Below are positions 3,539 through 18,299 of a DNA stretch of 64,000 nt, in pieces. Each line of letters begins with the position of its first letter. Within the stretch, counting starts at the first letter, position 1. Origin of the DNA: Anaerococcus sp. Marseille-P3625. Its GTDB lineage: Bacteria; Bacillota; Clostridia; Tissierellales; Peptoniphilaceae. The stretch covers positions 769,262 to 833,261 of the forward strand of contig NZ_OCTP01000011.1 of NCBI RefSeq assembly GCF_900232825.1, in the 5' to 3' direction. Made by a program: the position numbers and the translations under genes. The notes under the pieces are model-generated. The model searched no databases. It saw only the letters and a program-made list of their open reading frames with translations, and had not been told where the DNA came from.

Positions 3539-3545
3539 AACCACC

Positions 3546-4244
3546 TCATTTTATAATAAGATTTTCGTTCTTGTTATAAAGATTAAATCTTTGTTCTCTG
3601 GCAAAAGCAATCAAATTTACATTTTTTTCTCTTGCCATATCTATGGAAACGCTGGTAGGTGAGGCTTGAGATACGATTAAATCAAAGTCGATTTTTAAAA
3701 TTTTATCAATAATCTGATCGCTTACCCTGCAAGAAGTAAAGATAAATTTATCTGAAATGTCAACTTCCTTTGCTAAAATATAGCCTATGAGCTTATCGAC
3801 GGCGTTATTTCTTGCCACATCTTCAAAGAATTCCATGATCCTATAATTTTCTATAATAGCACAAGCATGAGCACCACCAGTTTTTTTAAAAATCAAAGAA
3901 TAATTTTGAAATTCATTTGCCAAGGCAAAGATTTTTTCTCTTTCAAGGATAAATTTACCCTTATTTCTCTTTATCTTTGGAGATTTTTCCTCTTTTAATT
4001 TCACATAGGCCTTATTATCTCTTATTTGTAAATCTATTATGTCATCTTTGGAATTTATCAAGTCCAAGGCATAAAGATGGCCTATGACAAGATATTCTAA
4101 ATTTGACGGCGAGCACATAAGCCTTGCAAGGATTTTTTCTCCTTGGTAAATGTAAAAATAAGTTTCTACTATAACATCATCGTTAAAGCAAATTATCTTA
4201 TCTTCTTTGTATTTTTTTATTTGGTATTTTTTAGTTAAATCCAT
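3546..4244 (-). CDS. fdhD: Formate dehydrogenase accessory sulfurtransferase FdhD, lacking the usual CxxC motif
   Basis: 232 residues. FdhD passes sulfur from a cysteine desulfurase to the bis-MGD cofactor so that formate dehydrogenase is active. Recognisable family blocks are FKKTGGAHACA, EDVARNNAVDKLIGY, FTSCRVSDQII, SQASPTSVSIDMA and NLIAFAREQRFNLY. The CxxC (CGxCG) pair that normally lies just before the TGG block is absent: that stretch (about residues 85-105) is Lys-rich with no cysteine. Cysteines remain in HACA and TSCR. The gene overlaps the end of mobA by 14 bp and has only a weak ribosome site, so coupling with mobA is likely. Context beside fdhA and mobA supports the name. Confidence 0.88.
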   Translation of the reverse strand: MDLTKKYQIKKYKEDKIICFNDDVIVETYFYIYQGEKILARLMCSPSNLEYLVIGHLYALDLINSKDDIIDLQIRDNKAYVKLKEEKSPKIKRNKGKFILEREKIFALANEFQNYSLIFKKTGGAHACAIIENYRIMEFFEDVARNNAVDKLIGYILAKEVDISDKFIFTSCRVSDQIIDKILKIDFDLIVSQASPTSVSIDMAREKNVNLIAFAREQRFNLYNKNENLIIK

Positions 4245-4845
4245 TGTTTTTCTCTTTCAAAAATTTCTGCCAATCTTCGGGATAATTTAGATTTCTAAAG
4301 ATGTTTTGATAATTTTTAAAGGTCCTTATCTCTTCTTCTTTTATGATAGTAGGGGAGATTTCTTCTAAAAATCCATTAAGACTTCTTTTTTGTGCTTGTA
4401 GATATTTTTCTAAATTATTTGCCAAGTCTTTTTTGTAAAAGGCAAAAAATGGCTGGTAGCATTTTTCATTCTTATAAACCAGAGCTTTTTCGTAAGGCTT
4501 AGTCTTTAGAAAATCTAGGTAGACTTGGTTAAAATAAGGCATATCGCAAGCTATTAGAAAATTATCCTCATTAACAGAAGAAATGAGGCCAGTAAAAAGT
4601 CCTCCACATGGCCCCATATCTTTTATAATATCAGATACGATAAGTATTTTATTTTCGTAATTATCATACCTATTTTTGAAAAAATCTTTCTTGTTGCTTA
4701 CAATAATTATTTCTTCAAAATTTTTGGATAAATTTTCTATAAGAGTATCTATTAGATAAATCCCCTTATAATTAAGCATTTGTTTATCCTTGCCCATCCT
4801 AGTGGATTTGCCACCGGAAAGAACGATTGCTGATTTTTCTTTCAA
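4231..4845 (-). CDS. mobA: Molybdenum cofactor guanylyltransferase MobA
   Basis: 204 residues. MobA transfers GMP from GTP to Mo-molybdopterin to form MGD, the cofactor form used by bacterial formate dehydrogenases. The N-terminus has the nucleotidyltransferase signature IVLSGGKSTRMGKDKQ with its GTP-binding glycines and lysine; ACDMPYF carries the metal-binding aspartate. Length and layout match MobA. The start is a TTG at 4845, immediately after the upstream TGA stop (TGATTG), with a GGGGTGG-like ribosome site inside the end of the ferritin-like gene. No MobB is seen in this window. Confidence 0.9.
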   Translation of the reverse strand: MKEKSAIVLSGGKSTRMGKDKQMLNYKGIYLIDTLIENLSKNFEEIIIVSNKKDFFKNRYDNYENKILIVSDIIKDMGPCGGLFTGLISSVNEDNFLIACDMPYFNQVYLDFLKTKPYEKALVYKNEKCYQPFFAFYKKDLANNLEKYLQAQKRSLNGFLEEISPTIIKEEEIRTFKNYQNIFRNLNYPEDWQKFLKEKNNGFN

Positions 4846-5340
4846 TCAACCACCCCAACTCATGTTCATATACTTATTCATGAGCTTATCATATTCGTCT
4901 TTGAAAATTTTGGCATGGCCATCTTCCCAAGCCGCAAAGTTTGTTAGAATTTCTTTTAGTTCGCTATCTTCTACTTTGCCTGCCATCATCTTATAATATT
5001 CTCTAAAATCTTCTTCGATTAGGTAAGCCATACGAAGAACGTTCATATCTGGAATCATTGATTGTTCCAAAGTCTCATCTAAGTTTTCGCTTTCTTTTCT
5101 TTGGTTGAAAAACTCGTGAGCTTCTTCTTTTGGCAATTCTAGGTCAGAAACTTCCTCACCTTGGTATTTGGCAAGTAATTTTTTTAGATATTCGTAATGT
5201 CCCCATTCGATTTCAGATAATTTCTTAAAAACAGATTGGGTTTGTAGATTTTGGCTTTTTTCTGCATTGTCTTTGTAGAAATTGTGGCCATATAATTCCA
5301 TGCCCATGGCAAGATTTATTATCTTTATTGGATCATACAT
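4846..5340 (-). CDS. Ferritin-like/rubrerythrin-type diiron protein without rubredoxin domain
   Basis: 164 residues forming a four-helix ferritin-like domain. Metal ligands are visible as E15, E45xxH48, a Glu pair in the third helix (LIEEDFREYY) and ExxH in AWEDGHAKIF. It lacks the C-terminal CxxC..CxxC rubredoxin domain found in the rubrerythrin at 41.7 kb, and instead ends in MNMSWGG. The ATG at 5340 overlaps the end of the formate dehydrogenase gene by 8 bp and follows GAAAGGA, so it is translated with it. Relatives bind diiron centres and act on peroxide or store iron. A role in protecting or metallating the oxygen-sensitive dehydrogenase is inferred from position only. Confidence 0.75.
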   Translation of the reverse strand: MYDPIKIINLAMGMELYGHNFYKDNAEKSQNLQTQSVFKKLSEIEWGHYEYLKKLLAKYQGEEVSDLELPKEEAHEFFNQRKESENLDETLEQSMIPDMNVLRMAYLIEEDFREYYKMMAGKVEDSELKEILTNFAAWEDGHAKIFKDEYDKLMNKYMNMSWGG

Positions 5341-8029
5341 AAGAATTCCTTTCTAATTTTTCTATAGCAACAGATGAAACTTTTAATTCTGGAATTTTGG
5401 CAATTGGGTCCAAAACTGGGTTTGTAAGTGTATTTGCAGATCCGTCAACATAGTGGAAAGGCATAAATACAACGCCCGGTTCAATTTTGTCGGTAACCTT
5501 TGCCATTGTCGTAACGCTACCACGTCTTGATGAAACTTTTACTCTTTCACCATCGGCAATATTGTAGGCTTTGGCAGTAACAGGTGAAATTTCCATGTAG
5601 GATTTTCCAGCAATTTCTGTAAGTCCGTCGATTTTGCCAGTCATAGTTCTGGTGTGGTATTGGTATAACATTCTTCCCGTTGTTAGTATCAATGGATAAT
5701 CTTCATCAGGTGTTTCTTTACTTACTTCATATTCTATTGGCACAAATAGGCCCTTGCCTCTTGCCATAGTATTTTTGTGCAAGTATTTGGTTCCCTTGTG
5801 ATCTTTGCTTGTGCATGGCCATTGTAGAGATTCAGTTTTTAATCTCTCATAGGAAATTCCCCTATAAGATGGAGTGCAAGCTGCTAGTTCATCCATGACT
5901 TCGCTTGGAGAATTATAGTACTCTTCATAACCTAGTAGTGTTGAAACTTCCATTAAGATTTGCCAGTCTGGCTTTGCTTCGCCAATAGGATCTATGGCTT
6001 TATTGATTCTTTGGATTCTTCTTTCGGTGTTGGTGAAAGTTCCGTCTTTTTCGGCAAATGATGCTGCTGGTAAAACTACATCGGCAAATGATGCTGTTTC
6101 CGTTAGGAAAATATCTTGAACAACCAAGAAATCCAAACTATTAAGAGCTTTCTTGATGTGGTTTAAATCTGGATCAGATATCATAGGATTTTCGCCCATT
6201 ATATATAAGAAGCTTAGTTCTCCTTTTTCTGCTGAGTGCATCATTTCAGTTAGGGTTAGACCTTTTTTAGCTGGTAATTCAGTATGCCAGAAATTCTCCA
6301 TAGATTCTCTAACTGGATCCAAAAATACTTTTTGATATCCTGTGTAATCTGTAGGAAGAGCACCCATATCACAAGCACCTTGAACGTTATTTTGTCCTCT
6401 TAGAGGGTTAATACCTGTAGATTCACGACCTACATTTGCTAAAAGCATTTGTAGGTTTGAAGTTGATCTTACGCCGTTGGTACCTGTAGCATGTTGGGTA
6501 ATTCCCATTGAATAATACAAAGCACCTTTGTCAGCTTTGGCATACATTCTTGCAGCCTTGATCAAATCATCTTTGTCGATTCCACAAATTTCTGCAACAA
6601 CTTCTGGAGTATATTTTTCTACAACTTTCTTAAATTCTTCAAAACCTTCAGTTCTTTCGTTTATATATTCCTCATTTTCAAGATGTTCACTTAAAATTAC
6701 ATTCATCAAACCATTTAAAGCTGCAATATTTGTTCCTGGTTTAATTTGCAAGTAAATATCTGCATATTTGGCAAGTTCGATCTCTCTAGGATCTATAACT
6801 ATAAGTTTTGCTCCATCTTGTACTCTTTTTTTGATTTTTGTACCTATAACTGGGTGATTTTCAGTTGTATTTGTACCGATTATCAAAAATGCATCTGTGC
6901 CATCAATTTCTTCTATGGAATTTGTCATAGCGCCAGAGCCAAGAGTATTGGCAAGACCTGCTACGGTTGAGGCGTGGCAAAGACGAGCGCAGTGGTCAAC
7001 GTTATTTGTCTTAAAAACTGTTCTTATAAATTTTTGGAACAAATAGTTTTCTTCATTAGTGCATCTTGCAGAAGAAAAACCACCGAATCCATCTGGACCT
7101 TTTTTGGCCATAATTTCTTCGTATTTTTCTTTGATTAGCCTATAAGCTTCTTGCCAAGATGCTTCTACAAATTTGCCATCTTTTTTGATAAGTGGTTTTG
7201 TAAGTCTATCCGGATGATTTACGAATTTGTGGGCAAATTTACCCTTTACGCAAAGCAAACCATCGTTTGGTATGGTGTTAATTGGCTCAACTTCAACTAT
7301 ACGATTACCCTTAATTAGTAAATTTATTTGGCAACCTACTCCACAGTAAGAGCAAGTTGTTTGAACTTTTCTAACTTCCCAATATCTAAATTTATCTTCT
7401 GGATATTTTTTCTTAGGATTTAAAGCTCCAACCGGGCAAGCTGAAACACAGTTGCCGCAAGAAACACAATCGCTATTGCCAAAGCCCTTTTCCATAGGAG
7501 CTCCAATATAAGAATCAAAACCTCTATCTATAAAACTTATGGCATGACTATTTTGCAAATTATGGCATACGCTTACGCAAATTCCGCATTTTATGCACTT
7601 ATAAGGGTCATAGGTAAAGAACTTGTTGGTACTATCGACCTTTAATTCACTAGGCTCATTTTTGTAAGAGCCAGTCTTAACTCCATATTCATAGCAATAA
7701 TTTTGCAATTTGCATTTACCAGATTTATCGCAATTTAGACAATCATTTGGGTGGTTGGAGAATAATAAATCTAATATTTCTCTTCTCATCCTCATGATTT
7801 TTTCGCTGTGGGTGTGGATTTTCATTCCATCTTTTAATTTTTCTGAGCAAGCTGTAACTGGGGTTTTGTAACCTTCAACTTCTACTATGCATAACCTACA
7901 AGCGCCATTTGGCAATAATCTTTTGTCATAACAAAGGGTAGGAATTTCTACGCCAATTTCGTTACAAAAGCTAAGGATCGTTTTAGGAGCATCAACATCA
8001 TATTTGACATTGTTAATGTAAACTTCCAT
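5333..8029 (-). CDS. fdhA: Formate dehydrogenase catalytic subunit, cysteine type, with NuoG-like Fe-S N-terminus
   Basis: 898 residues from the ATG at 8029, chosen because AAGGAG lies 8 bases upstream; the longer in-frame start at 8050 would overlap the previous gene. Domains in order: a [2Fe-2S] plant-type ferredoxin (CRLCIVEVEG), a His-Cys3 cluster (HPNDCLNCDKSGKC), two [4Fe-4S] motifs (CIKCGICVSVC, CVSCGNCVSACP), the Mo/W-domain [4Fe-4S] motif (CSYCGVGC), the bis-MGD domain, and a C-terminal dinucleotide-binding domain (GRMLYQYHTRTMTG). The catalytic position, normally Sec in VUHG-type enzymes, is Cys351 in HCARLCHAS. It oxidises formate to CO2 or the reverse, passing electrons through its own clusters to the NuoE/F-like partners encoded upstream. 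Mo or W cannot be told from sequence. Confidence 0.93.
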   Translation of the reverse strand: MEVYINNVKYDVDAPKTILSFCNEIGVEIPTLCYDKRLLPNGACRLCIVEVEGYKTPVTACSEKLKDGMKIHTHSEKIMRMRREILDLLFSNHPNDCLNCDKSGKCKLQNYCYEYGVKTGSYKNEPSELKVDSTNKFFTYDPYKCIKCGICVSVCHNLQNSHAISFIDRGFDSYIGAPMEKGFGNSDCVSCGNCVSACPVGALNPKKKYPEDKFRYWEVRKVQTTCSYCGVGCQINLLIKGNRIVEVEPINTIPNDGLLCVKGKFAHKFVNHPDRLTKPLIKKDGKFVEASWQEAYRLIKEKYEEIMAKKGPDGFGGFSSARCTNEENYLFQKFIRTVFKTNNVDHCARLCHASTVAGLANTLGSGAMTNSIEEIDGTDAFLIIGTNTTENHPVIGTKIKKRVQDGAKLIVIDPREIELAKYADIYLQIKPGTNIAALNGLMNVILSEHLENEEYINERTEGFEEFKKVVEKYTPEVVAEICGIDKDDLIKAARMYAKADKGALYYSMGITQHATGTNGVRSTSNLQMLLANVGRESTGINPLRGQNNVQGACDMGALPTDYTGYQKVFLDPVRESMENFWHTELPAKKGLTLTEMMHSAEKGELSFLYIMGENPMISDPDLNHIKKALNSLDFLVVQDIFLTETASFADVVLPAASFAEKDGTFTNTERRIQRINKAIDPIGEAKPDWQILMEVSTLLGYEEYYNSPSEVMDELAACTPSYRGISYERLKTESLQWPCTSKDHKGTKYLHKNTMARGKGLFVPIEYEVSKETPDEDYPLILTTGRMLYQYHTRTMTGKIDGLTEIAGKSYMEISPVTAKAYNIADGERVKVSSRRGSVTTMAKVTDKIEPGVVFMPFHYVDGSANTLTNPVLDPIAKIPELKVSSVAIEKLERNSYV

Positions 8030-8030
8030 A

Positions 8031-8978
8031 TTATTCTCCTTTTTTCGCATCTACTTTTTCAATCTTTTTAACTATATTTTTAAAACCTGTTACTGTTAAC
8101 CAGTTGCTTTCAATAAATTCTCCTGCACCTTTCATATAAGGAGTGTCAGGATTATCCAAAAACATTAGCTCTGTCATCATTCTACCCTTTAGACATAAAG
8201 GTCTGCCAGAACTTGGTTTTTTAGCTGTAACTGCAATGTTTTCTCCATTTTTGGAGTGAACTTCAAAATTGCAACCAAATTCGCAAACTTTGCACTTAAC
8301 AGTTTTCTTTTCGCTTTCAAAACTTCTAATTTTGCCAAGCGATCTTTTGTCAATCAAAGCTCCAACTGGGCAAATTGAAACGCATCTATTGCAAGATATG
8401 CAATATGAATGAGCAAAATCTTTTCCTAGATCCAAAGCTATATAGGCATCATAACCTCTATCGGCAAAGCTTAGGATAGATCTTTCTTCGATTTGTCCAC
8501 AAATTTGAACGCATTTGCCACAAAGAATGCATTTAGCATTATCTTTTAAAATATAAGGGCTTGAAAGATCGTAAACTTTTTCTCTTTTTGCTCCGTCGTG
8601 GTCTCTAAATTTCACATCATATTCGTAAGCGTATTTTTGTAAATCGCAAGCTCCTGCTTTTTGGCAAGTTAGGCAATCATTTGGGTGAGAATCTAAAAGA
8701 AGTTGTAAAATAGCTCTTCTTTTTTTGATAATCTCCTCAGATTTAGTATTTATTTCCATGCCATCAGCAACTCTAGTTGAGCAAGCTGTATCGATTTTTG
8801 TCCAACCACGGTTTGTAATCTCTACTATGCATAACCTACAACCGCCGAACTTCTCAAGATCTGGATCGTAACATAGGGAAGGGATATCTATGCCATTTTC
8901 TCTGGCTACTTCCAAAATAAACCTATCTTTTTGGGTTTGTATTTCTTTTCCATCGATTTTTATTGTAATATCTGTCAT
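8031..8978 (-). CDS. NuoG-like iron-sulfur subunit (truncated paralogue of the FdhA N-terminus)
   Basis: 315 residues. It repeats the cluster order of the neighbouring FdhA N-terminus: [2Fe-2S] (CRLCIVEI), His-Cys3 (HPNDCLTCQKAGACDLQ), and two [4Fe-4S] motifs (CILCGKCVQIC, CISCNRCVSICP). It then has one more cluster motif (CKVCEFGC with a later CLKGRM), the start of a molybdopterin-oxidoreductase domain, and stops there. It therefore carries electrons but cannot hold the bis-MGD cofactor. It lies between the NuoF-like gene and fdhA, with 1 bp before the fdhA start. I infer that it wires the diaphorase part to FdhA, as the HydA/NuoG-type subunits do in bifurcating hydrogenase and formate dehydrogenase complexes. 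Confidence 0.82.
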   Translation of the reverse strand: MTDITIKIDGKEIQTQKDRFILEVARENGIDIPSLCYDPDLEKFGGCRLCIVEITNRGWTKIDTACSTRVADGMEINTKSEEIIKKRRAILQLLLDSHPNDCLTCQKAGACDLQKYAYEYDVKFRDHDGAKREKVYDLSSPYILKDNAKCILCGKCVQICGQIEERSILSFADRGYDAYIALDLGKDFAHSYCISCNRCVSICPVGALIDKRSLGKIRSFESEKKTVKCKVCEFGCNFEVHSKNGENIAVTAKKPSSGRPLCLKGRMMTELMFLDNPDTPYMKGAGEFIESNWLTVTGFKNIVKKIEKVDAKKGE

Positions 8979-8982
8979 AAAA

Positions 8983-10521
8983 TCATCCCTTTACTACAGC
9001 TTTTGGTTTGATTGGGCAAACATTATAGCAAGTTCCACATTTAATGCACTTATCTTGATCGATAATATGTTTTTCTTTTGGATTGCCGCTTATGCAAGAT
9101 ACTGGACAATTTCTCTTACAAGTTCCACATCCTATACAATTATCTGCTATCTTATAGCTTAACAAAGCCTTGCAAGTTCCAGCTGGGCAGTGTTTGTTTT
9201 TGATATGTTCGATGTATTCATCTTTGTAATACATAAGTGTTGAAATTACTGGGAAAGCCGCAGATTTTCCAAGACCACATAAAGATGTTTCAGTTACCAA
9301 TTGACTAAGTTCTTCTAGCTTATCAATATCTTCCATCTCGCCATGGCCGGCAATAATTCTTTCAAGAATTTCAAGAATTCTCTTTGTACCTTCTCTACAA
9401 GGAACGCACTTACCACATGATTCATCACAGGTAAAATCTAGGAAAAATCTTGCAATATCAACCATACAAGTATTCTCATCCATAACTACCATTCCGCCTG
9501 AACCCATGATTGAGTGTAATTCTTTTAAGGTTTCATAATCAACAGATGAGTCAAGGTATTTTGCTGGTATACATCCACCAGATGGACCACCAGTTTGTAC
9601 TGCCTTAAGCTCCTTATCTCCTTCAATTCCATCACCTAGGTCATAGATTATTTGTCTTAGAGTTGTACCCATTGGAACTTCTATAAGTCCACTTTTTTTG
9701 ACATCTCCTACTAGGGAGAAAACCTTAGTTCCTGGAGATTTTTCAGTACCGATAGATCTGTACCAATCAGCACCTTTTAGGATAATTTGTGCAACATTTG
9801 CCAAAGTTTCTACATTGTTGATAACTGTTGGTTTTTGCCATAAGCCTCTAAAGGCTGTACGGTGAATTTTTACTCTTGGCATTCCTCTTTTGCCCTCAAT
9901 TGATTCCATCAAAGCGGTGGATTCACCACAAACAAAGGCACCAGAACCTAATCTAAGCTCGATTGAAAAGTCAAAACCAGAATCCATTATATTTTTGCCA
10001 AGAAAGCCCTTATCTTCCGCATCTTTAATAGCGTATTTTAAACTTTCTACAGCTTTTGGATATTCAGCTCTAACATAGATAAAACCTCGATCGCTTCCTA
10101 TTGCATAACCTGCAATTGCCATTGCTTCAAGAACTGAATGAGGGTCATTTTCAAGAATTGACCTATCCATATAAGCACCAGGATCTCCTTCATCAGCGTT
10201 ACAGATTATATATTTTTGATCTACATCGTAATCGTAAGCTGTTTGCCATTTTTTGCCTGTCGGAAAGCCTGCGCCACCTCTTCCTCTTAACAAGGAATCT
10301 TTTATTACATTTATTATTTCTTGTCTATCCATTTCAAATAGAGCTTGATGGAGGGCAAAATATCCATCTCTAGCTATGTATTGATCAATATCTCTAGGAT
10401 CTATTACTCCACAGTTCCTAAGAGCAATTTTTACTTGTATGTCATCTGTCGGCTCTAAATTTTCTGGATGGGCAATTTTGGTATTTTCTTTAATCTCTTT
10501 AAGATAATCTAAACTAATCAT
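8983..10521 (-). CDS. NuoF/HydB-like NAD(P)H-binding flavoprotein subunit
   Basis: 512 residues. It has the FMN/NADH-binding core of NuoF (LLRGRGGAGFPTGKKW, CNADEGDPGAYMDR, GAFVCGESTALMESIEG), the N3-type [4Fe-4S] motif CDESCGKCVPCREGT with its downstream cysteine (SLCGLG), and two C-terminal ferredoxin [4Fe-4S] motifs (CIGCGTCKRNCP, CIKCGTCYNVCP). The N-terminal thioredoxin-like [2Fe-2S] domain found in many HydB proteins is missing; the separate NuoE-like gene upstream supplies that function. It is expected to exchange electrons between NAD(P)H and the Fe-S chain. Whether the complex also uses ferredoxin (bifurcation) is possible but not shown. Confidence 0.9.
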   Translation of the reverse strand: MISLDYLKEIKENTKIAHPENLEPTDDIQVKIALRNCGVIDPRDIDQYIARDGYFALHQALFEMDRQEIINVIKDSLLRGRGGAGFPTGKKWQTAYDYDVDQKYIICNADEGDPGAYMDRSILENDPHSVLEAMAIAGYAIGSDRGFIYVRAEYPKAVESLKYAIKDAEDKGFLGKNIMDSGFDFSIELRLGSGAFVCGESTALMESIEGKRGMPRVKIHRTAFRGLWQKPTVINNVETLANVAQIILKGADWYRSIGTEKSPGTKVFSLVGDVKKSGLIEVPMGTTLRQIIYDLGDGIEGDKELKAVQTGGPSGGCIPAKYLDSSVDYETLKELHSIMGSGGMVVMDENTCMVDIARFFLDFTCDESCGKCVPCREGTKRILEILERIIAGHGEMEDIDKLEELSQLVTETSLCGLGKSAAFPVISTLMYYKDEYIEHIKNKHCPAGTCKALLSYKIADNCIGCGTCKRNCPVSCISGNPKEKHIIDQDKCIKCGTCYNVCPIKPKAVVKG

Positions 10522-10529
10522 AAATTCAC

Positions 10530-11030
10530 CTACTTGTTATTTTCCAAAACTTTTAAGACATCTTTTTTTGTAAAGTGTTCGACCTGTTCGCCATTTATTT
10601 CAACTACTGGAGCAGCTCCACAGTTTCCAAGACATCTAGTTTCTGATATAGAAAACTTGCCATCAGGAGTAGTTTCTCCTTTTTTTATGCCAAGGCGAGT
10701 TTCAAATTCATTTAAAATATCGGCAGCTCCTTTTACATAGCATGCTGTTCCAAGACAGATGTGAATATCAGTTTTTCCCTTTGGAATAAAGGTAAATTGT
10801 GAATAGAAAGTTGCTACACCATAAACTTCTGCAAGTGGTATATTTAGTCTATTTGAAATTAGGGTCATAATTTCATCTGGCAAATAACCAAATATATTTT
10901 GTGCCTCTTGCAAAACTGGCATCAAAGGACCTTTTCTATCTTTATTTTTTTCTATGAAATTTTTAATTTCTTCTATCTTTTCTTTGTTTGCTTCCTTGTC
11001 GAAAGCAAAATTTCCTCTAATTGTTTTCAT
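10530..11030 (-). CDS. NuoE/HydC-like [2Fe-2S] thioredoxin-fold subunit
   Basis: 166 residues, typical for the NuoE family. After a helical N-terminus, the block LMPVLQEAQNIFGYLP and VYGVATFYSQF precede the four cluster cysteines, in CLGTACYVKGA (two) and ETRCLGNCGAAP (two). This subunit carries a [2Fe-2S] cluster next to the flavin of NuoF. It lies directly after the formate channel gene with GAGGAAATTA as ribosome site and 8 bp before the NuoF-like gene, so the two subunits are co-translated. No hydrogenase catalytic subunit is encoded nearby, which ties this diaphorase module to formate dehydrogenase. Confidence 0.9.
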   Translation of the reverse strand: MKTIRGNFAFDKEANKEKIEEIKNFIEKNKDRKGPLMPVLQEAQNIFGYLPDEIMTLISNRLNIPLAEVYGVATFYSQFTFIPKGKTDIHICLGTACYVKGAADILNEFETRLGIKKGETTPDGKFSISETRCLGNCGAAPVVEINGEQVEHFTKKDVLKVLENNK

Positions 11031-11867
11031 TTAATTTCCTCTTTTTCTATAAGCTAACCAATATCCTAATCCTACAAATATTCCACCACCGATGATATTA
11101 CCAAGGGTTACTGGAAGTAGATTGTGACCTAGAAAACTTCCCCAATTTAAGCCATTTAGAGCTGCTTGATCAAGACCTGTTGCAGCAACATATTCTGGTA
11201 TAGATTTTGCCAAAATTCCTGCAGGTATGTAATACATATTTGCAATACTATGCTCAAAACCTGAAAGAACAAATAGCATAACCGGGAAAAATGCACAAAG
11301 CATCTTGCCAACTTGGCTATCAGATCCAAAAGACATCCAAACTGCTAGGCAAACTAACCAGTTACAAGCAATTCCTAAAATAAGAGCTTGAGAAAATCCT
11401 AAATTCACCTTAGAATTTGCAATTAAGATTACTCTGGCTCCAAGTTCGCTTGCTCCACTATTCCATTGACCAGATTTTAGCATCAAAAATGCAAAAAATA
11501 CTGAACCAATAAAATTGCCAATATAAACTATGCCCCAAGCTCTCAATAATTCTTTTATACTTATTTTTTTGTCCAAAACTGAAATTACCATAAGGTTATT
11601 ACCGGTAAAAAGTTCAGCTCCTCCAATAAGTACAAATATTAGGCCTGGAGTAAAGGTTAAGCCTTGGATAAGCTTTCCAATTCCTAAGCTTTCTTTGCCT
11701 GCAAGTAAATTAAAAGATGCAAAGGTTGAACCGCCTGCCGCAAAAGCTATAAACACCCCAGCAATAAAAGAAAGTATAAAAAGTTTTTTGCTACTTGCGC
11801 GTGCCTTGCCAACATAAACATCACTTACCTTGTCCAAGATTTTATCTGGACTTAAAATCTCTTGCAT
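11031..11867 (-). CDS. Formate/nitrite transporter family channel (FocA-like)
   Basis: 278 residues with six predicted membrane helices, the size and layout of FNT-family pentameric channels. The family glycine-rich helix repeats are visible (IAFAAGG, FTPGLIFVLIGGAELFTGNNL, GNFIGSVFFAF, GIACNWLVCLAVWM, FVLSGFEHSIANMY, GNIIGGGIF). NWLVCLA and SGFEHSIANM are characteristic of formate channels; the histidine in FEHSIANM matches the central gating histidine. I start it at 11867, where GGAGGAG lies 4-5 bases upstream, rather than at the in-frame ATG at 11909. It is first in the formate dehydrogenase operon and should move formate across the membrane. Confidence 0.9.
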   Translation of the reverse strand: MQEILSPDKILDKVSDVYVGKARASSKKLFILSFIAGVFIAFAAGGSTFASFNLLAGKESLGIGKLIQGLTFTPGLIFVLIGGAELFTGNNLMVISVLDKKISIKELLRAWGIVYIGNFIGSVFFAFLMLKSGQWNSGASELGARVILIANSKVNLGFSQALILGIACNWLVCLAVWMSFGSDSQVGKMLCAFFPVMLFVLSGFEHSIANMYYIPAGILAKSIPEYVAATGLDQAALNGLNWGSFLGHNLLPVTLGNIIGGGIFVGLGYWLAYRKRGN

Positions 11868-11944
11868 ATCTCCTCCTTTATTTAACATAAGATATACATA
11901 AATATTCAATTTAAAAATATAAAATCAAATACTTACACACTAAT

Positions 11945-11973
11945 ATAATAAAACTTTTTCCCGACTTTGTCAA
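11945..11973 (-). promoter_or_regulatory. Promoter of the formate dehydrogenase/molybdopterin operon
   Basis: On the minus strand a perfect TTGACA (11968-11973) is followed by a 17-bp spacer and TATTAT (11945-11950). The first gene, the formate channel, begins about 78 bp downstream. No other strong promoter is seen before tupA, so this may drive about 12 kb. Confidence 0.75.
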
Positions 11974-11995
11974 TGAGAGTGAAAATGGCAGTATA

Positions 11996-12011
11996 GTCAA
12001 TATTACTTGAC
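11996..12011. promoter_or_regulatory. Candidate regulator-binding inverted repeat upstream of focA
   Basis: GTCAATATTACTTGAC is a perfect 5-bp inverted repeat with a 6-bp centre. It lies 23 bp upstream of the -35 box, centred about 65 bp before the probable start of transcription, where an activator would sit. Its half-site orientation is the opposite of an FNR site, so no regulator is named. Confidence 0.4.
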
Positions 12012-12120
12012 AAAAATTTATCTAACTAGGAAATCATTTTTTAATAAAGTATTTTCTTGAAATTTTTTGAAAGTTATCAGACAAATAATTTTTTTAGCCC
12101 TTGATTTATTAATATTTTAG

Positions 12121-12152
12121 ATAAAAAAATAAGCTTAAATTAATAAGCTTAT
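12121..12152 (-). terminator. Rho-independent terminator of the moaA-moaB operon
   Basis: On the minus strand ATAAGCTT (12145-12152) pairs with AAGCTTAT (12129-12136) around an 8-base loop and is followed directly by a run of T. It ends the operon 23 bases after the moaB stop. Confidence 0.8.
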
Positions 12153-12174
12153 CGAAATTGTATTTTTATAAATA

Positions 12175-12654
12175 CTAATGATTATCAATACCAATTATGG
12201 TTTCAAGAGCATGAATTAAAAAAGGTCTTATTATTTCAAAATTTTCCGTACAGGCTTTAGCAGATCCTGGGAAATTTATTATAAGGCTTTCTCCTCTTAT
12301 ACCAGCTACAGCTCTTGATAAATAGGCAAGAGGAGTGATTTTCCCGCCCTCATATCTCATAGCTTCTGTAATTCCAGGAGTTTGTTTTTCGATAACTTCT
12401 AAGCTCGCATCGGCTGTAAAATCTCTTTTGGAAAATCCAGTTCCACCGCTTGTTAGAATGAGGGAAATTTTTTCATCGGCATATTCTATTAATTTATTTT
12501 TTATTTCCTCGTAATCATCAGCTATTACTTGGTATTTTTTTACTTCAAAGCCCATTTCTTTTAAGAGATCTACTAGAATTTTCCCGCTTTTATCTTCGTA
12601 AATTCCAGCAGCTGCCCTATCTGAGCTTACCAAAACTGCCGCACTAAAGTTCAT
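12175..12654 (-). CDS. moaB: Molybdenum cofactor biosynthesis protein MoaB/MogA
   Basis: 159 residues. MoaB/MogA proteins adenylylate molybdopterin before MoeA inserts the metal. Family motifs visible are VSSDRAAAG near the N-terminus, LILTSGGTGFSKRDFT (the pterin-binding SGGTG loop) and a C-terminal GESLIINFPGSAKAC. Length matches MoaB. A GGAGG site lies 8 bp before the ATG. It is the last gene of the moaA operon and overlaps the MOSC gene by 11 bp, so it is translationally coupled to it. Confidence 0.92.
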   Translation of the reverse strand: MNFSAAVLVSSDRAAAGIYEDKSGKILVDLLKEMGFEVKKYQVIADDYEEIKNKLIEYADEKISLILTSGGTGFSKRDFTADASLEVIEKQTPGITEAMRYEGGKITPLAYLSRAVAGIRGESLIINFPGSAKACTENFEIIRPFLIHALETIIGIDNH

Positions 12655-13108
12655 TTTTATCCTCCAAATTTTCTTTAGGGATTTCTTTTATAGAAATTTG
12701 ATCGCCTGGATAAATGTAGCCTTCTTTTTTTACTATGGTAAAAATTCCCTCGCTTGGCATTATGCATTCGCCAATTATATTTCTAATTTCACAACCCTTG
12801 TGGCAAACTTTGCCAATTTGAGTGACTTCAAGTTCACAAGCTCCAATTACAAGCCTTGTTCCAATTGGCAAATGGTGAAGGTCAATTCCTTGGGTCATTA
12901 TATTTTCTGCAAAATCTCCAGGCTTTAGGCTGGGTAATTTTTTTTGCATTTTTTTAAGTGATTCTTCTGCCAAAAGAGAAACTTGCCTATGCCAATTGCC
13001 TGCATGGGCATCGCCAATTATTCCATGGTCAATTTTTAATTGGATTTTTTCTACGGGAGTTTTTATAGTTCCCTTTTCCTTGCTTATATTAACTGAAATT
13101 ACTTTCAT
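12644..13108 (-). CDS. MOSC-domain protein
   Basis: 154 residues. The MOSC fold handles molybdopterin-sulfur chemistry; small stand-alone MOSC proteins in moa operons are common in clostridia, but their exact reaction is unsettled. The family core is visible in GIIGDAHAGNWHRQVSLLAEESL, with the conserved cysteine region GKVCHKGCEIRNIIGECIMP nearer the end. I choose the ATG at 13108, which gives the usual MKVISVN start. A GTG at 13132 is in frame but would extend the overlap with moaC from 20 to 44 bp. It lies between moaC and moaB. Confidence 0.85.
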   Translation of the reverse strand: MKVISVNISKEKGTIKTPVEKIQLKIDHGIIGDAHAGNWHRQVSLLAEESLKKMQKKLPSLKPGDFAENIMTQGIDLHHLPIGTRLVIGACELEVTQIGKVCHKGCEIRNIIGECIMPSEGIFTIVKKEGYIYPGDQISIKEIPKENLEDKNEL

Positions 13109-13577
13109 TTGTGAATGTTCCACTTTTTCCACCTGACTTTTTTAATAATTTTATATTCGTGATTTCTATATCTCTTTGAAGAGCCTTGCACATATCATAA
13201 ATGGTTAAAGCTGCAAGACTTACAGCAGAGAGTGCTTCCATTTCCACTCCAGTTTTTTCATCTACCTTGCAAGTTGCAAAAATTTCTATGAAATTTTGCT
13301 TATCATTCATCTTAAATTCTATGTCTATGGCAGTTAAATTTATGGGATGGCACATAGGAATGGCCCTAGATGTGTTTTTGGCAGCCATTATTCCTGCGAC
13401 TTTTGCAACGGTAAGGACATCGCCCTTTTTTATTTGGCTATTTTTTACCATTTCATAAGTTTTTTCGTTAAGTAAAACTTTCCCGTAGGCTACGGCTTGT
13501 CTGTGGCTTATGGATTTTTCCGATACATCTACCATTTTTGCCTTGCCATTTTCGTCTAAATGTGAAAATTTGTCCAT
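13089..13577 (-). CDS. moaC: Cyclic pyranopterin monophosphate synthase MoaC
   Basis: 162 residues. MoaC converts the MoaA product to cyclic pyranopterin monophosphate, the first stable molybdopterin intermediate. Motifs: FSHLDENGKAKMVDVSEK at the N-terminus, GIMAAKNTSRAIPMCHPI (with the HPI active-site region), and EKTGVEMEALSAVSLAALTIYDMCKA near the C-terminus. Its start codon directly follows the moaA stop (TAAATG), and its Shine-Dalgarno GGAGGA is formed by the last two glycine codons of moaA. Confidence 0.95.
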   Translation of the reverse strand: MDKFSHLDENGKAKMVDVSEKSISHRQAVAYGKVLLNEKTYEMVKNSQIKKGDVLTVAKVAGIMAAKNTSRAIPMCHPINLTAIDIEFKMNDKQNFIEIFATCKVDEKTGVEMEALSAVSLAALTIYDMCKALQRDIEITNIKLLKKSGGKSGTFTNESNFS

Positions 13578-14516
13578 TTATCCTCCAATAGAATTCATAT
13601 TTCTTAAACTAGCAGAAGTAGAATTTTCTAGCTGGTGCTTTTGGGGTTTATTATAAATCGCCCTTATAATTTGCTCTTTTTTTTCTTCTTTTGATAGGCC
13701 CTTTATATTAATTTCATCTGCCGAATGTAGACAAGCTTTTAATTTGCCATCTGAAGTTAGTCTTATCTTGTTGCAATCTTTGCAAAACTTATTGCTTAAA
13801 GGTGAAATAAGGCCAATTTTTCCCTTGTAACCGTCAATTTGATAATTTCTAGCCACTCCCTTATATCCTAAATCTTTATAGGAATAGGCTTTTAAAATAT
13901 CCTGGTTTCCCATGAAATTTTCTTTATCAAAATCTTTGGCCTGGCCAATTGGCATTAGCTCAATAAACCTAACTTCTATATCTCTATCTTTGGTCAAATT
14001 TATAAAAGAATCTATCTCATCTTCGTTAAATCCCTTGATCAAAACTGTATTTATTTTTACCTTAAATCCTAAGTCCAGAGCTTTTTCTAAGGATCTTATG
14101 GTTTTGTCAAAATCGCAGCTTTTAGTAATTTTCTTAAATTTATCTTCTTTTAAAGTATCTAGGGAAAAATTAATCCTATTTACTCCAATTTCCTTCAAGC
14201 GTTCGAGTTTATCGTAAATCAAGGAGCCATTAGTTGTAATTCCAATATCTTCTAAGGCTTTAATAGATGCGATTTTTTCTATAAGATTCATTATATTTTT
14301 TCTTACAAAAGGCTCGCCGCCAGTAATTCTTACTTTTTTTACGCCCAAATCCGTCATGATTTGAACTATTTCATAAATTTCTTCAAAAGTTAAAATATCC
14401 TTATGGTCAAGTAATTTGATGCCTTCTTCACCCATGCAATATTTGCATCGAAAGTTGCACCTATCTGTGACTGATATTCTAAGATAAGAAATTTCTCTAT
14501 TAAATTGATCTTTCAT
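13578..14516 (-). CDS. moaA: GTP 3',8-cyclase MoaA
   Basis: 312 residues, radical-SAM enzyme for the first step of molybdopterin synthesis from GTP. The N-terminal SAM cluster motif is CNFRCKYC, preceded by LRISVTDR. The second cluster motif near the C-terminus is CKDCNKIRLTSDGKLKAC. The protein ends in NSIGG, keeping the conserved C-terminal double glycine needed for catalysis. It is the first gene of moaA-moaC-MOSC-moaB. No moaD, moaE or moeB is present in the window, so the sulfur-insertion step must be encoded elsewhere. Confidence 0.95.
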   Translation of the reverse strand: MKDQFNREISYLRISVTDRCNFRCKYCMGEEGIKLLDHKDILTFEEIYEIVQIMTDLGVKKVRITGGEPFVRKNIMNLIEKIASIKALEDIGITTNGSLIYDKLERLKEIGVNRINFSLDTLKEDKFKKITKSCDFDKTIRSLEKALDLGFKVKINTVLIKGFNEDEIDSFINLTKDRDIEVRFIELMPIGQAKDFDKENFMGNQDILKAYSYKDLGYKGVARNYQIDGYKGKIGLISPLSNKFCKDCNKIRLTSDGKLKACLHSADEINIKGLSKEEKKEQIIRAIYNKPQKHQLENSTSASLRNMNSIGG

Positions 14517-14626: not shown

Positions 14627-14648
14627 TAGAACCCAATATTGGGTTCCA
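14619..14648 (-). terminator. Terminator after the OsmC-like gene
   Basis: GAACCCAATATTGGGTTC (14629-14646) is a perfect palindrome. On the minus strand it is followed after two bases by a T run, 5 bp after the stop of the 14651-15103 gene. Confidence 0.75.
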
Positions 14649-14650
14649 TT

Positions 14651-15103
14651 TTATAAAACTATCTTAAAATTAACTTTTATTTTATCCTTAAAAGTGTTGT
14701 AAATTAGAGTTTTATCCAAAACTTCTTGTAGAAATTCACACAAATCGTCTCCTTCTAAAAATGAAAAGAAATAAATATCTATATTTATTTCATCTATTAG
14801 GGCTTTTTCATCAAAGCCAATTACATTTAGCAAGTACATTGGATTTTTTATTGTAAGGTTTACTTTTGCTTCTATGTCTTGGAGGACTTGCTGGTGTTTT
14901 TCGGCCTGCCTTTTCATGGTTAGGATGATTTCTGAAGTTATGGCAGATATTAGATAGTCTATTGATGTAAATTCTTCTTTTTCCGAATCAAAGGAAATGG
15001 GGGAATCTACAGCAATTGATGATTTTTCGTTGTAAATTTTGACCAAATCATCTCTAACTACTGCCCTATAATTTTTATTAAAAAAATTTATATCATCTGT
15101 CAT
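14651..15103 (-). CDS. OsmC-like small protein without the peroxidatic cysteines
   Basis: 150 residues. The arrangement of a short N-terminal beta part, a central helix after IDYLISAITSEIILTMKRQAE, and an INIDIYFFSFLEG strand followed by a helix (CEFLQEVLDKT) resembles the OsmC/Ohr fold. The two reactive cysteines of OsmC/Ohr are not at their usual places: the central helix reads TSEII where SCTA is expected. A peroxidase function is therefore doubtful. It overlaps the MetE-like gene by 11 bp and is last in a four-gene operon. The OsmC assignment is tentative; treat as an uncharacterised protein. Confidence 0.5.
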   Translation of the reverse strand: MTDDINFFNKNYRAVVRDDLVKIYNEKSSIAVDSPISFDSEKEEFTSIDYLISAITSEIILTMKRQAEKHQQVLQDIEAKVNLTIKNPMYLLNVIGFDEKALIDEINIDIYFFSFLEGDDLCEFLQEVLDKTLIYNTFKDKIKVNFKIVL

Positions 15104-16271
15104 ATTCTTCTCTTAATTTGTCGCGAGCTTCTATCATGGACTCTAACTTCTTTTTGATATTTTCGTATTCATTTACAGGTCTATTAGAAAATGTTGCAAA
15201 TCCACAGTCAGGATTTAGCCACAAATTTTCTTTGTCTATAAATGTTAGGGCTTCTTTGGCTCTTTCATAGATAACATTGCTATCTTCTTTTGCATCAAAT
15301 CTAGGATTTATAACTCCTAGCCCTAATTTTATTTTATTTCTAATTCTATCATCTGATAAAAGTAATTTTAATTCTCCAGCTCTTGGGGTAGAAAATTCTA
15401 GAGCCAATAGGTCTGCCTTAATATTAGCAAATAAATCTAGCAAAGGAGTGTAAGGACCTTCTAGAAGTATGCTTTCGTTTTTGGACCAATTGCCTCGGCA
15501 AACGTGCATGGAAGCTATAGATTTTGATCTGTCAATCCCATCCATGACACTTTTTATAAGATGACTTGCAAATTTTAATTCTTCTGTAGGATCTTTTCTT
15601 TGGGATAAGGATGCACACATGAATGTTCTTGGTCTACCTTCAGTAAAAACAATTTCTGTTAGGACTGGTTCGTCAAATTGAATTACATCTACGCCAATTT
15701 CTTGAAGGTTTTTGATTTCTTCTTTGAAAATTTTTATTACATCTTCGCCAAGATCTTCTTTGCTATCGTAGTATTTGGAGCTTACATTGGCAAGCCACAT
15801 ACTTCTGGTTACAAGATAAGGACCAGGCATGGTGATTTTTACTTTTCTATCGGTCAAAGATTTTAAAAGTTTTAATTCATTTGCGACAATATCGCCCTTG
15901 TAGACAAGTTTTCCTGTACAAATGGCATTTTTTATTGAACTTGCTGGTACATCAAGAGTTGTAAGTATGTTTTCAAACTCTCTTTTGTCATCCACATAAT
16001 CGAGCATTTCAGCCATGGACATTTGGCTTACGCCCCCTAATTTTTCTGAGATAAAGGAAACGTAATTATCACGTGCTATTTCGCCGCTGGTAATTATATC
16101 AATATCCAAATCTTCTTGAAGCCTTACAACTTCCTTGGTTTTTTCGCTAACAAGTTTTTCATAAGATGCCTTATCGATAAGGTTGGCGGATAATTTCCTA
16201 CGAGCAAGGAGAATTTCCTTGCCCCTAGGCATTGATCCTATAAGTGATGTTTTAAAAAGCTTAGTTTGCAC
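15093..16271 (-). CDS. Short MetE-like (cobalamin-independent methionine synthase C-terminal-type) protein
   Basis: 392 residues, about half of full MetE. It matches only the catalytic barrel: IGSMPRG at the N-terminus, PGPYL, DVIQFDEPVL, MHVCRGNW (His and Cys zinc ligands) and NPDCGFATF (the last zinc-ligand Cys). It lacks the N-terminal barrel that binds folate polyglutamate. Such short proteins methylate thiols using donors that are often unknown, and some are folate-independent methionine synthases. The start is a GTG at 16271 with AGAAGG upstream, overlapping the PhnD-like gene by 11 bp. Substrate and donor cannot be read from the sequence. Confidence 0.8.
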   Translation of the reverse strand: MQTKLFKTSLIGSMPRGKEILLARRKLSANLIDKASYEKLVSEKTKEVVRLQEDLDIDIITSGEIARDNYVSFISEKLGGVSQMSMAEMLDYVDDKREFENILTTLDVPASSIKNAICTGKLVYKGDIVANELKLLKSLTDRKVKITMPGPYLVTRSMWLANVSSKYYDSKEDLGEDVIKIFKEEIKNLQEIGVDVIQFDEPVLTEIVFTEGRPRTFMCASLSQRKDPTEELKFASHLIKSVMDGIDRSKSIASMHVCRGNWSKNESILLEGPYTPLLDLFANIKADLLALEFSTPRAGELKLLLSDDRIRNKIKLGLGVINPRFDAKEDSNVIYERAKEALTFIDKENLWLNPDCGFATFSNRPVNEYENIKKKLESMIEARDKLREEYDR

Positions 16272-17088
16272 TATTGAAACCTTCTAGGAAATTTCCTAAA
16301 TATTCATTAGCTTCTGTAATTTGCTTAAAGCCATCATATCTTCCATCAACCCATTTTGTAAGACCTTCAAGATCCATTATTTCCTTATCTTCTTTTTTGT
16401 TGTAATCCATTCTCATCATGATTTCATCAAAAGCTTTGATATCTTCATCGGAAACTTCTGGATTAAAGGTAAATACACAATGGTCAAAATAATCTGTCTT
16501 ATCTAAAACTTCTACAGCGTTTTTGTCAATTGTTCCATCGGCAATCCAAGCATCGTAATTTAGATCTAAGCAAAATGTTGCATCAACTTCGTCATTTAGC
16601 AAAGCTTTCATGCTATCAAGTTCTCCACCAACGTGATCTCCGTGAAGACCAACGCCTATGTCAAATCTTTTTTCTTCGTAATCTTTGCCAAATTCAAGAC
16701 CATTTTTGTGGAGATGATTAATTGGAATAAGTCTTGCTTGAGGAGAGTCTATTGCGCCAAAGCCTATGGTTTTGCCTTTTAGATCAGAAATTTCTTTAAA
16801 TCTATCTTTTTTTACAACTAGATAAGTTCTTCTATCCCTATCTGTATCTCTCATGCAGCCGATTTTTTCTTTTTTATCAGTTCTAAGTCTTGCATCTAAT
16901 TGGGCAAGTGGAGAATTCCAAGCTACATCTATATCTTTGTTGATAAGAGCATCTACTTGTAATTTGTAATCCTTAAAGAAAACAGGCTCAATTTCTGCTC
17001 CATTTTCCTTATAAAACTTCTCAATCAATTCCCAAATAACTGTAACTCTAGGAGCATAAATAACTGCTCCTACCTTTAATTTATTCAT
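16261..17088 (-). CDS. PhnD-like binding-fold protein with no signal peptide
   Basis: 275 residues resembling phosphate/phosphonate ABC binding proteins: ELIEKFY near the N-terminus, DVAWNSPLAQLDARL, a DLKGKTIGFGAIDSPQARLIP block, and a hinge region followed by DEVDATFCLDLNYDAW. Unlike transporter proteins it starts at MNKLKVGAVIYAPRV, with no signal peptide or lipobox, and no permease or ATPase gene lies beside it. AAAGGAT precedes the ATG. It is thus probably a cytoplasmic binding protein or enzyme. It sits between the acyl-CoA-dehydrogenase-like and MetE-like genes in one operon. Confidence 0.75.
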   Translation of the reverse strand: MNKLKVGAVIYAPRVTVIWELIEKFYKENGAEIEPVFFKDYKLQVDALINKDIDVAWNSPLAQLDARLRTDKKEKIGCMRDTDRDRRTYLVVKKDRFKEISDLKGKTIGFGAIDSPQARLIPINHLHKNGLEFGKDYEEKRFDIGVGLHGDHVGGELDSMKALLNDEVDATFCLDLNYDAWIADGTIDKNAVEVLDKTDYFDHCVFTFNPEVSDEDIKAFDEIMMRMDYNKKEDKEIMDLEGLTKWVDGRYDGFKQITEANEYLGNFLEGFNSAN

Positions 17089-17104
17089 TAGTATCCTTTC
17101 TTTA

Positions 17105-18235
17105 TTATAAAAGTGGTTGACCTGTGATAGCTTTGCCTAGCCATACATTTAATACGTCCAATGATGGAGCCATGATTTGTCCTGCATAAGCATCTCTCAT
17201 TAATCTTTCGATTTCGCTTGCTTTGTTGTAGGTCTTTCCACCGCCAACTCTCATTGCAAGCGTTGATGAAGAAATTGCATTGTCGATTGCAGCAATTCTT
17301 GCAGCTATAATCTTAGCAACTGCATCAGCTTCGCCATCTACTAAACTTCTTGCAGCAAGTTCTGTTAGAGCCTTTGAGCTCATAGCATTTTTATAGATTG
17401 TTGCCAAGTGAATTTGAACTGTTTCTATATTTGCAAGATTTCTTCCATCAGGATATTTTCTATTTAGTGCATAGTGGTTAGTAACAGATGATAATCTTAA
17501 GTTTAGTCCTGTATAAACGCTTGCAAGTCCAAGAATGAAATATGGAGCTACTACGTTAAATACTTGATCTTGACCTGATCCTTCTTCGCCGATTTTGTTA
17601 ACTTCATCAAGTTTAACATCATTTAATTGCATTGGGCAAGATACGTTACCCTTCATGCCTATGCCTTTCCAATGTTCCGTCTTAAATTCTAAGCCTTCAG
17701 ATTCAAGTGGAACTAACCAGTTGTTGATAGCTCCTTCTTTTTCTGTAGCTGGAGTTAAGATTAGATAATAGCTAGCGTTTAAAGCACTTGTAACCATTGA
17801 TTTTACACCGTTAAAAGTATAAGTTCCATCGTTGTTATTAGTTACTTTAACTTCTGGAATATAAAAATGTGTTCCAGTTCCAAATTCAGAATAAGCTAGT
17901 GCCATGAATTTGTTGTTGTTAACAATATCATCTACAACTTTTTTCTTTAATTCGTCATTACCGTTTGTAAGAACTGTCATCAATGCAACATTGTGCATCA
18001 TGTAGCAAAGACCAGCTGTTGGATTAGATTCAGCAAAAGCTAAAACTGCTTGTTGGTGCTCTACTGCAGTTTTTCCTAAGCCGCCTAATTCTTCTGGGAT
18101 AAGAAGTTTAAAATAACCAGCTTCTCCCATAGCTTTGAAAGATTCAGCAGGGAATTTTCCCTCTTCATCAGTCATGCGATTGAATGGTTCAATGTGTTCT
18201 TTAGCAAATTGTTTTGCTTGTTCGTAAAAGTTCAT
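17105..18235 (-). CDS. Acyl-CoA-dehydrogenase-fold flavoprotein lacking the usual catalytic glutamate
   Basis: 376 residues spanning the three-part acyl-CoA dehydrogenase fold: the N-terminal helical domain (LLIPEELGGLGKTAVEH), the beta domain (ALAYSEFGTGTHF, then FNGVKSMVTSA) and the C-terminal helical domain ending RLMRDAYAGQIMAPSLDVLNVW. Classical dehydrogenases have a YEGTNE-type catalytic Glu in that last segment; here it reads MAPSLDVL. This is the pattern of the DszC/SfnB side of the family, which acts on sulfur compounds, though those enzymes need oxygen. GGAGG precedes the ATG. It is first in an operon with PhnD-like, MetE-like and OsmC-like genes. The substrate is unknown. Confidence 0.8.
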   Translation of the reverse strand: MNFYEQAKQFAKEHIEPFNRMTDEEGKFPAESFKAMGEAGYFKLLIPEELGGLGKTAVEHQQAVLAFAESNPTAGLCYMMHNVALMTVLTNGNDELKKKVVDDIVNNNKFMALAYSEFGTGTHFYIPEVKVTNNNDGTYTFNGVKSMVTSALNASYYLILTPATEKEGAINNWLVPLESEGLEFKTEHWKGIGMKGNVSCPMQLNDVKLDEVNKIGEEGSGQDQVFNVVAPYFILGLASVYTGLNLRLSSVTNHYALNRKYPDGRNLANIETVQIHLATIYKNAMSSKALTELAARSLVDGEADAVAKIIAARIAAIDNAISSSTLAMRVGGGKTYNKASEIERLMRDAYAGQIMAPSLDVLNVWLGKAITGQPLL

Positions 18236-18270: not shown

Positions 18271-18299
18271 ATCATAACAGCCATTTCTAATCTTGTCCA
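18271..18299 (-). promoter_or_regulatory. Promoter of the acyl-CoA-dehydrogenase-like/MetE-like operon
   Basis: Minus strand TGGACA (18294-18299), 17-bp spacer, TATGAT (18271-18276), about 35 bp before the start codon. Five of six bases match in each box. Confidence 0.7.

Follow-up and report, generated by a model that had tools for sequence, protein, structure and literature searches.

A four-gene operon in Anaerococcus

The DNA considered here, 64,000 nucleotides of contig NZ_OCTP01000011.1 from Anaerococcus sp. Marseille-P3625 (the window, taken at its full length), carries four closely packed genes on its minus strand. They encode an acyl-CoA-dehydrogenase-like (ACAD-like) flavoprotein, a PhnD-like protein with the fold of periplasmic binding proteins (PBP), a short MetE and an OsmC-like protein (Table 1). 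An original prediction, made from the sequence alone, had seen there an operon whose products each depart from their family, and had proposed a methyl- or sulphur-transfer route, possibly folate-independent methionine synthesis. The layout is as it described: the first two genes are separated by 16 nt, the PhnD-like and MetE genes overlap by 11 nt, as do the MetE and OsmC-like genes, and the expected single terminator is present, its T run on the minus strand. The promoter, then called good, is plausible with its extended -10 element, but constitutes weak evidence, because such sites occur in the region at chance number (17 found against 15.6 expected).

Table 1. Coordinates of the operon and of its putative signals in the window
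Feature	Positions	Strand	Description
ACAD-like gene	17105..18235	minus	376 aa; acyl-CoA-dehydrogenase-like flavoprotein; A356 occupies the position of the catalytic Glu
PhnD-like (PBP-fold) gene	16261..17088	minus	275 aa; no signal peptide by eye; H203-C204 in the cleft
Core MetE gene	15093..16271	minus	392 aa; catalytic half only
OsmC-like gene	14651..15103	minus	150 aa; no conserved cysteines
Putative promoter	18271..18299	minus	TGGACA-17-TATGAT, TG before -10; score 10/12; weak
Terminator hairpin	14629..14646	minus	GAACCC-AATATT-GGGTTC and T run; by eye, the program having listed the stem for the plus strand only

Conservation and spread of the module

The four genes travel together. Among 101 relatives, nine possess the PhnD-like gene, and all nine carry the complete set, adjoining and in one order. 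A MetE of the same type (PF01717; E-values 2e-35 to 7e-27; frames of 394-399 aa) was found in exactly these nine genomes, the next short PF01717 match standing at 3e-19; separate occurrence of the genes in relatives, which would have spoken against a common role, is therefore not what we observe. A scan of public genomes, which used one profile (A1, built on nine close relatives) together with two short peptide patterns and hence misses distant modules, yielded 67 loci, in genomes that come without completeness values. All four genes, each profile matching over at least 60%, are present at 49 of them, under 27 genus-level labels belonging to several phyla; 46 of these are contiguous in the order of the window and three are rearranged (L063, L065, L066). 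The other 18 comprise 13 loci where ACAD-like and PhnD-like genes occur without MetE or OsmC (L067, L070-L080, L085), three cut before MetE (L051, L052, L061), one that starts within the PhnD-like gene (L054) and one where no ACAD-like gene was found (L069). In one of the 49 complete loci (L058) MetE is split into two frames. When neighbours within 9 kb are clustered, the four genes appear in 29 to 40 labels and a fifth family never in more than 11; furthermore, the four proteins give concordant distance matrices (r 0.77-0.86, 0/999 permutations, 42 rows).

In the tree of PhnD-like proteins the closest relatives of the window's protein come from two genera of Peptoniphilaceae, Lagierella and Anaerococcus. 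Elsewhere the tree mixes phyla: Haemophilus and Campylobacter group with Gemella, Veillonella and Parvimonas (97/95), and, with weaker values, Neomegalonema and Coriobacteriales stand beside Loigolactobacillus (81/89). The block therefore seems to move between phyla, a horizontal mobility suggested by these sequences. No relative of the PhnD-like protein was found in viral contigs.

Four proteins that depart from their families

Residue counts were taken from 68 rows (the window and the 67 loci), from which eight near-identical or cut loci were dropped (L020, L029, L045, L054, L059, L081, L082, L084). This leaves 59 rows for the PhnD-like protein (L061, cut, is also out), 59 for the ACAD-like protein (L069 out), 43 for MetE (L058 out as its frame is broken, L069 in) and 43 for the OsmC-like protein (four-gene loci only).

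The window MetE (Pfam Meth_synt_2, 114 bits) aligns, as had been announced, to the C-terminal half of full-length MetE only, the N-terminal folate domain being absent. Its presumed homocysteine residues S13, E64 and D200 are found in 43/43 sequences, as are the zinc ligands C258, E292 and C356, with H256 in 42/43, a matching which rests on alignments and on motif context read by eye (HVC and LEFS segments). The E. coli counterparts of these residues bind zinc and homocysteine, according to PMC7857596. Two other cysteines, C118 and C219, lie outside the zinc site and are invariant in all 43. All 11 NCBIfam matches remain below their cut-offs. Judged by alignment, the protein has the features of a core methionine synthase, with no folate domain and an intact zinc and homocysteine site, and it may possibly represent a fifth kind of core MetE.

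The PhnD-like protein matches Pfam Phosphonate-bd with 101.5 bits, its best NCBIfam match being the Rv1680 SBP-like family (188.7 bits, cut-off 400). The proposal that it lacks both a signal peptide and transporter genes is upheld: its N-terminus, MNKLKVGAVIY, shows no signal-like stretch by eye, and no ABC transporter gene adjoins the operon in the window. Residues invariant among the 59 sequences include Y41, R80, D83, D114, S115, D151, E156, H203 and C204, the last two being also present in the 13 members of the sister clade described below. PMC5700983 presents structure 5LQ5 as Pm_PhnD with phosphite, where Y206 forms a cap above the R1 hydrogen of the ligand. In a profile alignment to this structure, Y41, S115 and H152 (H152 in 56/59) fall on Y46, S126 and H158, P116 and Q117 (57/59 each) replace T127 and S128 of the anion motif, and H203 and C204 face D205 and Y206. 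The latter pairing rests on the profile, because the single-sequence alignment puts a gap in this stretch. Hence, of the STS-H ligand motif and its Tyr cap, the first S and the H are kept, and the T, the second S and the capping Tyr are replaced. As far as these alignments go, the cleft is rebuilt in one way throughout, sister clade included.

In the ACAD-like protein the Acyl-CoA_dh_N, Acyl-CoA_dh_M and Acyl-CoA_dh_1 domains of Pfam are above cut-off, and the best NCBIfam match is Rv1679/FadE16 (229.6 bits, cut-off 600). The catalytic Glu, which belongs to the IYEGT segment of solved enzymes, aligns to A356, a position occupied by A in 55 sequences, G in three and S in one. Some acyl-CoA dehydrogenases carry this Glu at an alternative helix position; at none of positions 226-245, where it would lie, is Glu among the three commonest residues. 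K145, T149, D348, M355 and P357 are invariant in 59/59. The gene is triplicated in one locus (L022) and duplicated in five (L026, L047, L050, L052, L065). A Finegoldia cassette has three tandem copies (L014:10465-13872, the same place as L022), two of which are 57% identical to that of the window. Finally, the OsmC-like protein scores 25.4 bits with Pfam OsmC, just under the cut-off of 27.5. OsmC and Ohr peroxidases use two reactive cysteines; the window copy has a single Cys, and no Cys column is conserved, the best reaching 18/43.

The Pfam and NCBIfam matches are consistent with the names first given to the four proteins, and every departure noticed at the outset was confirmed, either in alignments or on inspection of the sequence. 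Co-inheritance unites the four genes, the block is present in several phyla and its active sites are altered alike. Our best reading is that of an undescribed module for methyl or chalcogen transfer, organized around what is possibly a fifth kind of core MetE.

Sister systems and the case for sulphur or selenium

The tree of PhnD-like proteins separates 46 rows of the window type, two Coriobacteriales loci with their downstream genes cut off among them, from 13 rows without MetE (split 100/98). At 12 of these 13 sister loci the gene following PhnD carries a TusA-like domain (the profile was built from eight; L076, L077, L078 and L080 were found with it). Five of these proteins were compared with Pfam: four gave weak matches of diiron type (DUF455 or AurF; one above cut-off) and that of L080 none. 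The third partner at the 13th locus, L079, is a radical S-adenosylmethionine (SAM) protein of the Rv1681 family (528.5 bits), with an N-terminus which, by eye only, looks TusA-like. A Mycolicibacterium plasmid also carries an ACAD-PhnD-radical SAM block (L088:1899-12847), surrounded by deiodinase-like, glutaredoxin, Rv1678-type membrane, CcdA and disulfide oxidoreductase genes. On two Paracoccus plasmids, a MetE of the module type (395 and 397 bits) forms one protein with this TusA-like domain (L086:6593-8122, L090:5593-7122). The first is annotated, and the order there is TusA, DsrE, two unknowns, the fusion, SelA and TrxB, with a cysteine desulfurase opposite; the second has no annotation. 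By analogy, the OsmC-like protein of the window and the TusA-like domains found elsewhere may fill the same slot, and we infer that MetE, diiron and radical SAM enzymes would be alternative last steps acting on a common intermediate.

This setting makes it necessary to consider that the group moved is a sulphur or a selenium atom rather than a methyl group. The ACAD-like and PhnD-like proteins would then free or activate the sulphur or selenium of a small compound, which OsmC- or TusA-like carriers would pass on, and MetE would only demethylate methylated thiols or selenols, methionine being a by-product. The TusA-like domains just described are in line with this scheme, as are matches below cut-off to selenate- and sulfonate-binding models for the PhnD-like protein, and to SfnB and 3-sulfinopropanoyl-CoA desulfinase for the ACAD-like protein. 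Selenium genes are found nearby. In a metagenome-assembled genome (MAG) of Aerococcus (L065:858-15924), where MetE-OsmC stands apart from ACAD-PhnD, the latter pair is followed by selD, yedF, a selenium/sulphur carrier and selB, with a SelA-like match beyond. A Solirubrobacteraceae MAG (L080:3595-12045) aligns in a row selD, tRNA-Sec, selA, selB, the ACAD-like and PhnD-like genes and a gene whose 487-aa product includes a TusA-like domain. In Ezakiella the formate dehydrogenase (FDH) gene beside the module (L028:12998-15676) is interrupted at codon 350 by a single in-frame TGA; the surrounding sequence, CARTUH, is a context of selenocysteine-containing FDHs. These three cases and the annotated Paracoccus plasmid are the reason why we keep selenium or sulphur under consideration. 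Yet they are the only four places with such signs, three of the 67 public loci and one plasmid (few marker proteins were used, and the selenocysteine machinery was not sought genome-wide); three other FDHs adjoining modules have no in-frame stop. TusA carries a CP motif, and the TusA-like domains of the diiron-type proteins, read by eye, lack it. We consider this chemistry the less likely one, and indeed unlikely, though it deserves attention. Methyl transfer is favoured because the chemistries of MetE, diiron and radical SAM enzymes can all remove or move a methyl group.

A proposed methyl-transfer module and its metabolic setting

We propose, tentatively and with the odds somewhat against it, that the four genes form a functional module which moves a methyl group between a small ligand and homocysteine or methionine without folate. 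The PhnD-like protein would not belong to a transporter; it would work in the cytosol, as an enzyme or as a carrier, and close around a small ligand, perhaps a methylated one, His203-Cys204 standing where the R group of the ligand points in phosphite-binding relatives. The ACAD-like protein, which keeps the residues of its middle domain and has lost the dehydrogenase base, would perform a redox step on the bound ligand. With its intact zinc-thiolate and homocysteine site, the core MetE would be the acceptor of the methyl group, or else its donor, with production or consumption of methionine, and the OsmC-like protein might hold or present an intermediate, as the TusA-like domain would in related systems. 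In the host this could amount to a salvage of imported homocysteine and of a methylated compound, which would yield methionine and release a thiol or a selenol.

Searches of the host genome, which is 99.89% complete, found no methylenetetrahydrofolate reductase (MTHFR, PF02219), no PF02574 protein (MetH) and no full-length MetE. The complete metE or metH that would have counted against the original prediction was thus not found, and in this host, though not in general, no candidate methionine synthase was seen outside the module. The nine module-bearing relatives likewise have no MTHFR (32/101 overall), no full-length MetE (6/101) and no S-adenosylhomocysteine hydrolase (AdoHcyase, SahH); PF02574 is present in one (G032), LuxS in one (G035) and a strong PF01053 match in two (G024, G032). 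One may ask whether this is simply an ordinary methionine synthase, fed by methyl-folate or a methyl corrinoid and placed among three unrelated genes. Its catalytic residues are intact, and PMC7857596 describes core synthases, MesA to MesD, which work, or are predicted to work, without the folate half. However, the absence of MTHFR from all nine relatives, the co-inheritance of the four genes and the failure of MetE to reach any of its 11 NCBIfam cut-offs make this very improbable.

Several observations nevertheless weigh against methyl transfer to homocysteine as the role of the module. No LuxS, SahH or strong PF01053 (MetB/C/Y) source of homocysteine was found in the host, where the best PF01053 match is 3.3e-10, or in five more of the nine relatives (HcyS-type enzymes were not searched), and AdoHcyase occurs in 3/41 module genomes; homocysteine would have to come from outside, or from a route other than those searched. 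The absence of MTHFR in 9/9 is weak by itself, because only 32 of the 101 relatives have it. In 42 other module genomes (41 with all four genes, and that of L069) MTHFR is present in 32 and a catalytic domain of full-MetE type in 20 (match below 1e-130; 19 in frames of at least 757 aa, that of G392 in a frame of 340 aa), so that the module is no general substitute, and the idea that it is the sole methionine synthase everywhere has to be abandoned. The ACAD-PhnD core exists without MetE in 13/67 loci, hence MetE cannot be its sole purpose, and no ACAD-like or PhnD-like gene was found beside the MetE of the annotated Paracoccus plasmid. The methionine-responsive leaders, S-box or T-box, which it had been suggested to look for, are found neither in the window nor beside the operon in any of the 16 loci, out of 67, that were scanned, and control of the operon by such elements was rejected; a single T-box was detected, in L029, about 7.7 kb from the operon and on the opposite strand. 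Finally, what we propose for His203-Cys204 and for the OsmC-like protein is suggested by alignment and analogy. The original interpretation is thus partly supported. A methyl- or sulphur-transfer route agrees with the intact MetE site, the conserved module and the Paracoccus fusion; folate-independent methionine synthesis agrees with the enzymes missing from the host, but not with the want of a tested homocysteine source, the coexistence with MTHFR or full MetE elsewhere or the lack of a leader.

The molybdenum cofactor and formate dehydrogenase neighbourhood

Upstream of the operon, genes resembling jag and yidC were recognized by eye. Directly downstream, on the same strand (429-14516), a cluster for FDH and the molybdenum cofactor (Moco) comprises MoeA fused to a PBP-like domain, MoeA, FdhD, MobA-like, rubrerythrin-like, FDH alpha, NuoG-like, NuoF, NuoE and a formate/nitrite transporter, then MoaB-, MOSC-, MoaC- and MoaA-like genes (MoaC identified by homology; MoaA, MoaB and MOSC by eye). 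It is tempting to see the module as an accessory of molybdoenzymes, FDH above all. Ezakiella, Coriobacteriales, Armatimonadetes, Campylobacter, Neomegalonema and Pseudonocardia do have FDH-like or S/N-oxide reductase genes in the vicinity of the module or of the ACAD-PhnD pair; another Campylobacter has moaC there, Lagierella and Mediannikoviicoccus have moaA-moaC-MOSC, and the sister system can include a MoaA-like radical SAM protein. However, MoaC, present in 56 of the 101 relatives, is absent from four of the nine that bear the module (each at least 99% complete), and the idea of an obligate accessory was rejected for this reason. Moreover, in three other Anaerococcus-type loci (L012, L013, L015) the module adjoins jag as in the window and no Moco gene follows, a 20-kb stretch having no match to those of the window; an mnmE-like gene (by eye) adjoins the cassette or lies further down. 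This explanation is the least credible of those we considered.

Significance and comparison with known systems

A wider and bolder scheme may be sketched, which we regard as rather doubtful. A PBP-fold enzyme would take a methyl group onto its invariant Cys from a small methylated sulphur, selenium or phosphorus compound, driven by the dehydrogenase-fold flavoprotein, and a fifth core MetE would methylate homocysteine with it, in a mobile salvage free of folate and B12 that could operate with or without oxygen; the same ACAD-PhnD core would also serve the diiron and radical SAM variants of other phyla, Rv1679-1681 included. If the methyl-transfer module is real, it would provide methionine with a methyl source that needs neither folate nor corrinoid, a first function for the ACAD/PhnD pair, which is at the same time an unexplained NCBIfam set (Rv1679, Rv1680), and an example of a cytosolic enzyme made from the fold of a binding protein. 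Even with another chemistry, a block of fixed order in 46 of 67 loci, across several phyla, is a clear and testable unknown. In the open-licence literature we did not find this four-gene system described, nor any paper that has Rv1679 and Rv1680 together.

Among known systems, the PtxB/PhnD binding proteins share with the PhnD-like protein their sequence family and the ligand-binding Y46, S126 and H158 (PMC5700983), and differ from it by their signal and transporter, as well as at P116-Q117 and H203-C204. According to PMC7857596, MesA, MesB and MesC are, like the module MetE, PF01717 core enzymes without the folate half; the paper links them to the Wood-Ljungdahl pathway, methanogens or corrinoid proteins, where the module MetE is tied to ACAD-, PhnD- and OsmC-like partners, a contrast drawn from gene linkage. 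The PRK06233-type short MetE is another short PF01717 protein, to which the module MetE scores 115.8 bits against a cut-off of 576, with 62 bits to 1ypx. This type is presumably that of B. subtilis YxjG/YxjH and of structure 1ypx, and we know of no such module partners for it.

Another is MesD with MesX. Several hosts of the module are strict anaerobes, unlike those of MesD. According to PMC7857596, MesD is confined to aerobes; it is a core MetE without the folate half, with the same zinc and homocysteine residues and in need of a partner, MesX (DUF1852), predicted to use flavin. DUF1852 is matched by none of the four module proteins (only these four were examined), and MetE has here three partners of other folds. 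MesD is defined by BLASTp scores of at least 390 to ACIAD3523 and its structure is 3rpd (PMC7857596); the module MetE falls short of this similarity by proxy, with 55.2 bits (phmmer) to 3rpd, ACIAD3523 itself not having been compared. Lastly, Rv1679 and Rv1680 (NF049984, NF049985, with Rv1681 as NF049973), whose NCBIfam names state no function, are the best families for the ACAD-like and PhnD-like proteins. Their third partner is a radical SAM protein instead of MetE and OsmC, and the window proteins stay below both cut-offs; the sister locus L079, which is above both, has the same His-Cys pair as the PhnD-like protein of the module.

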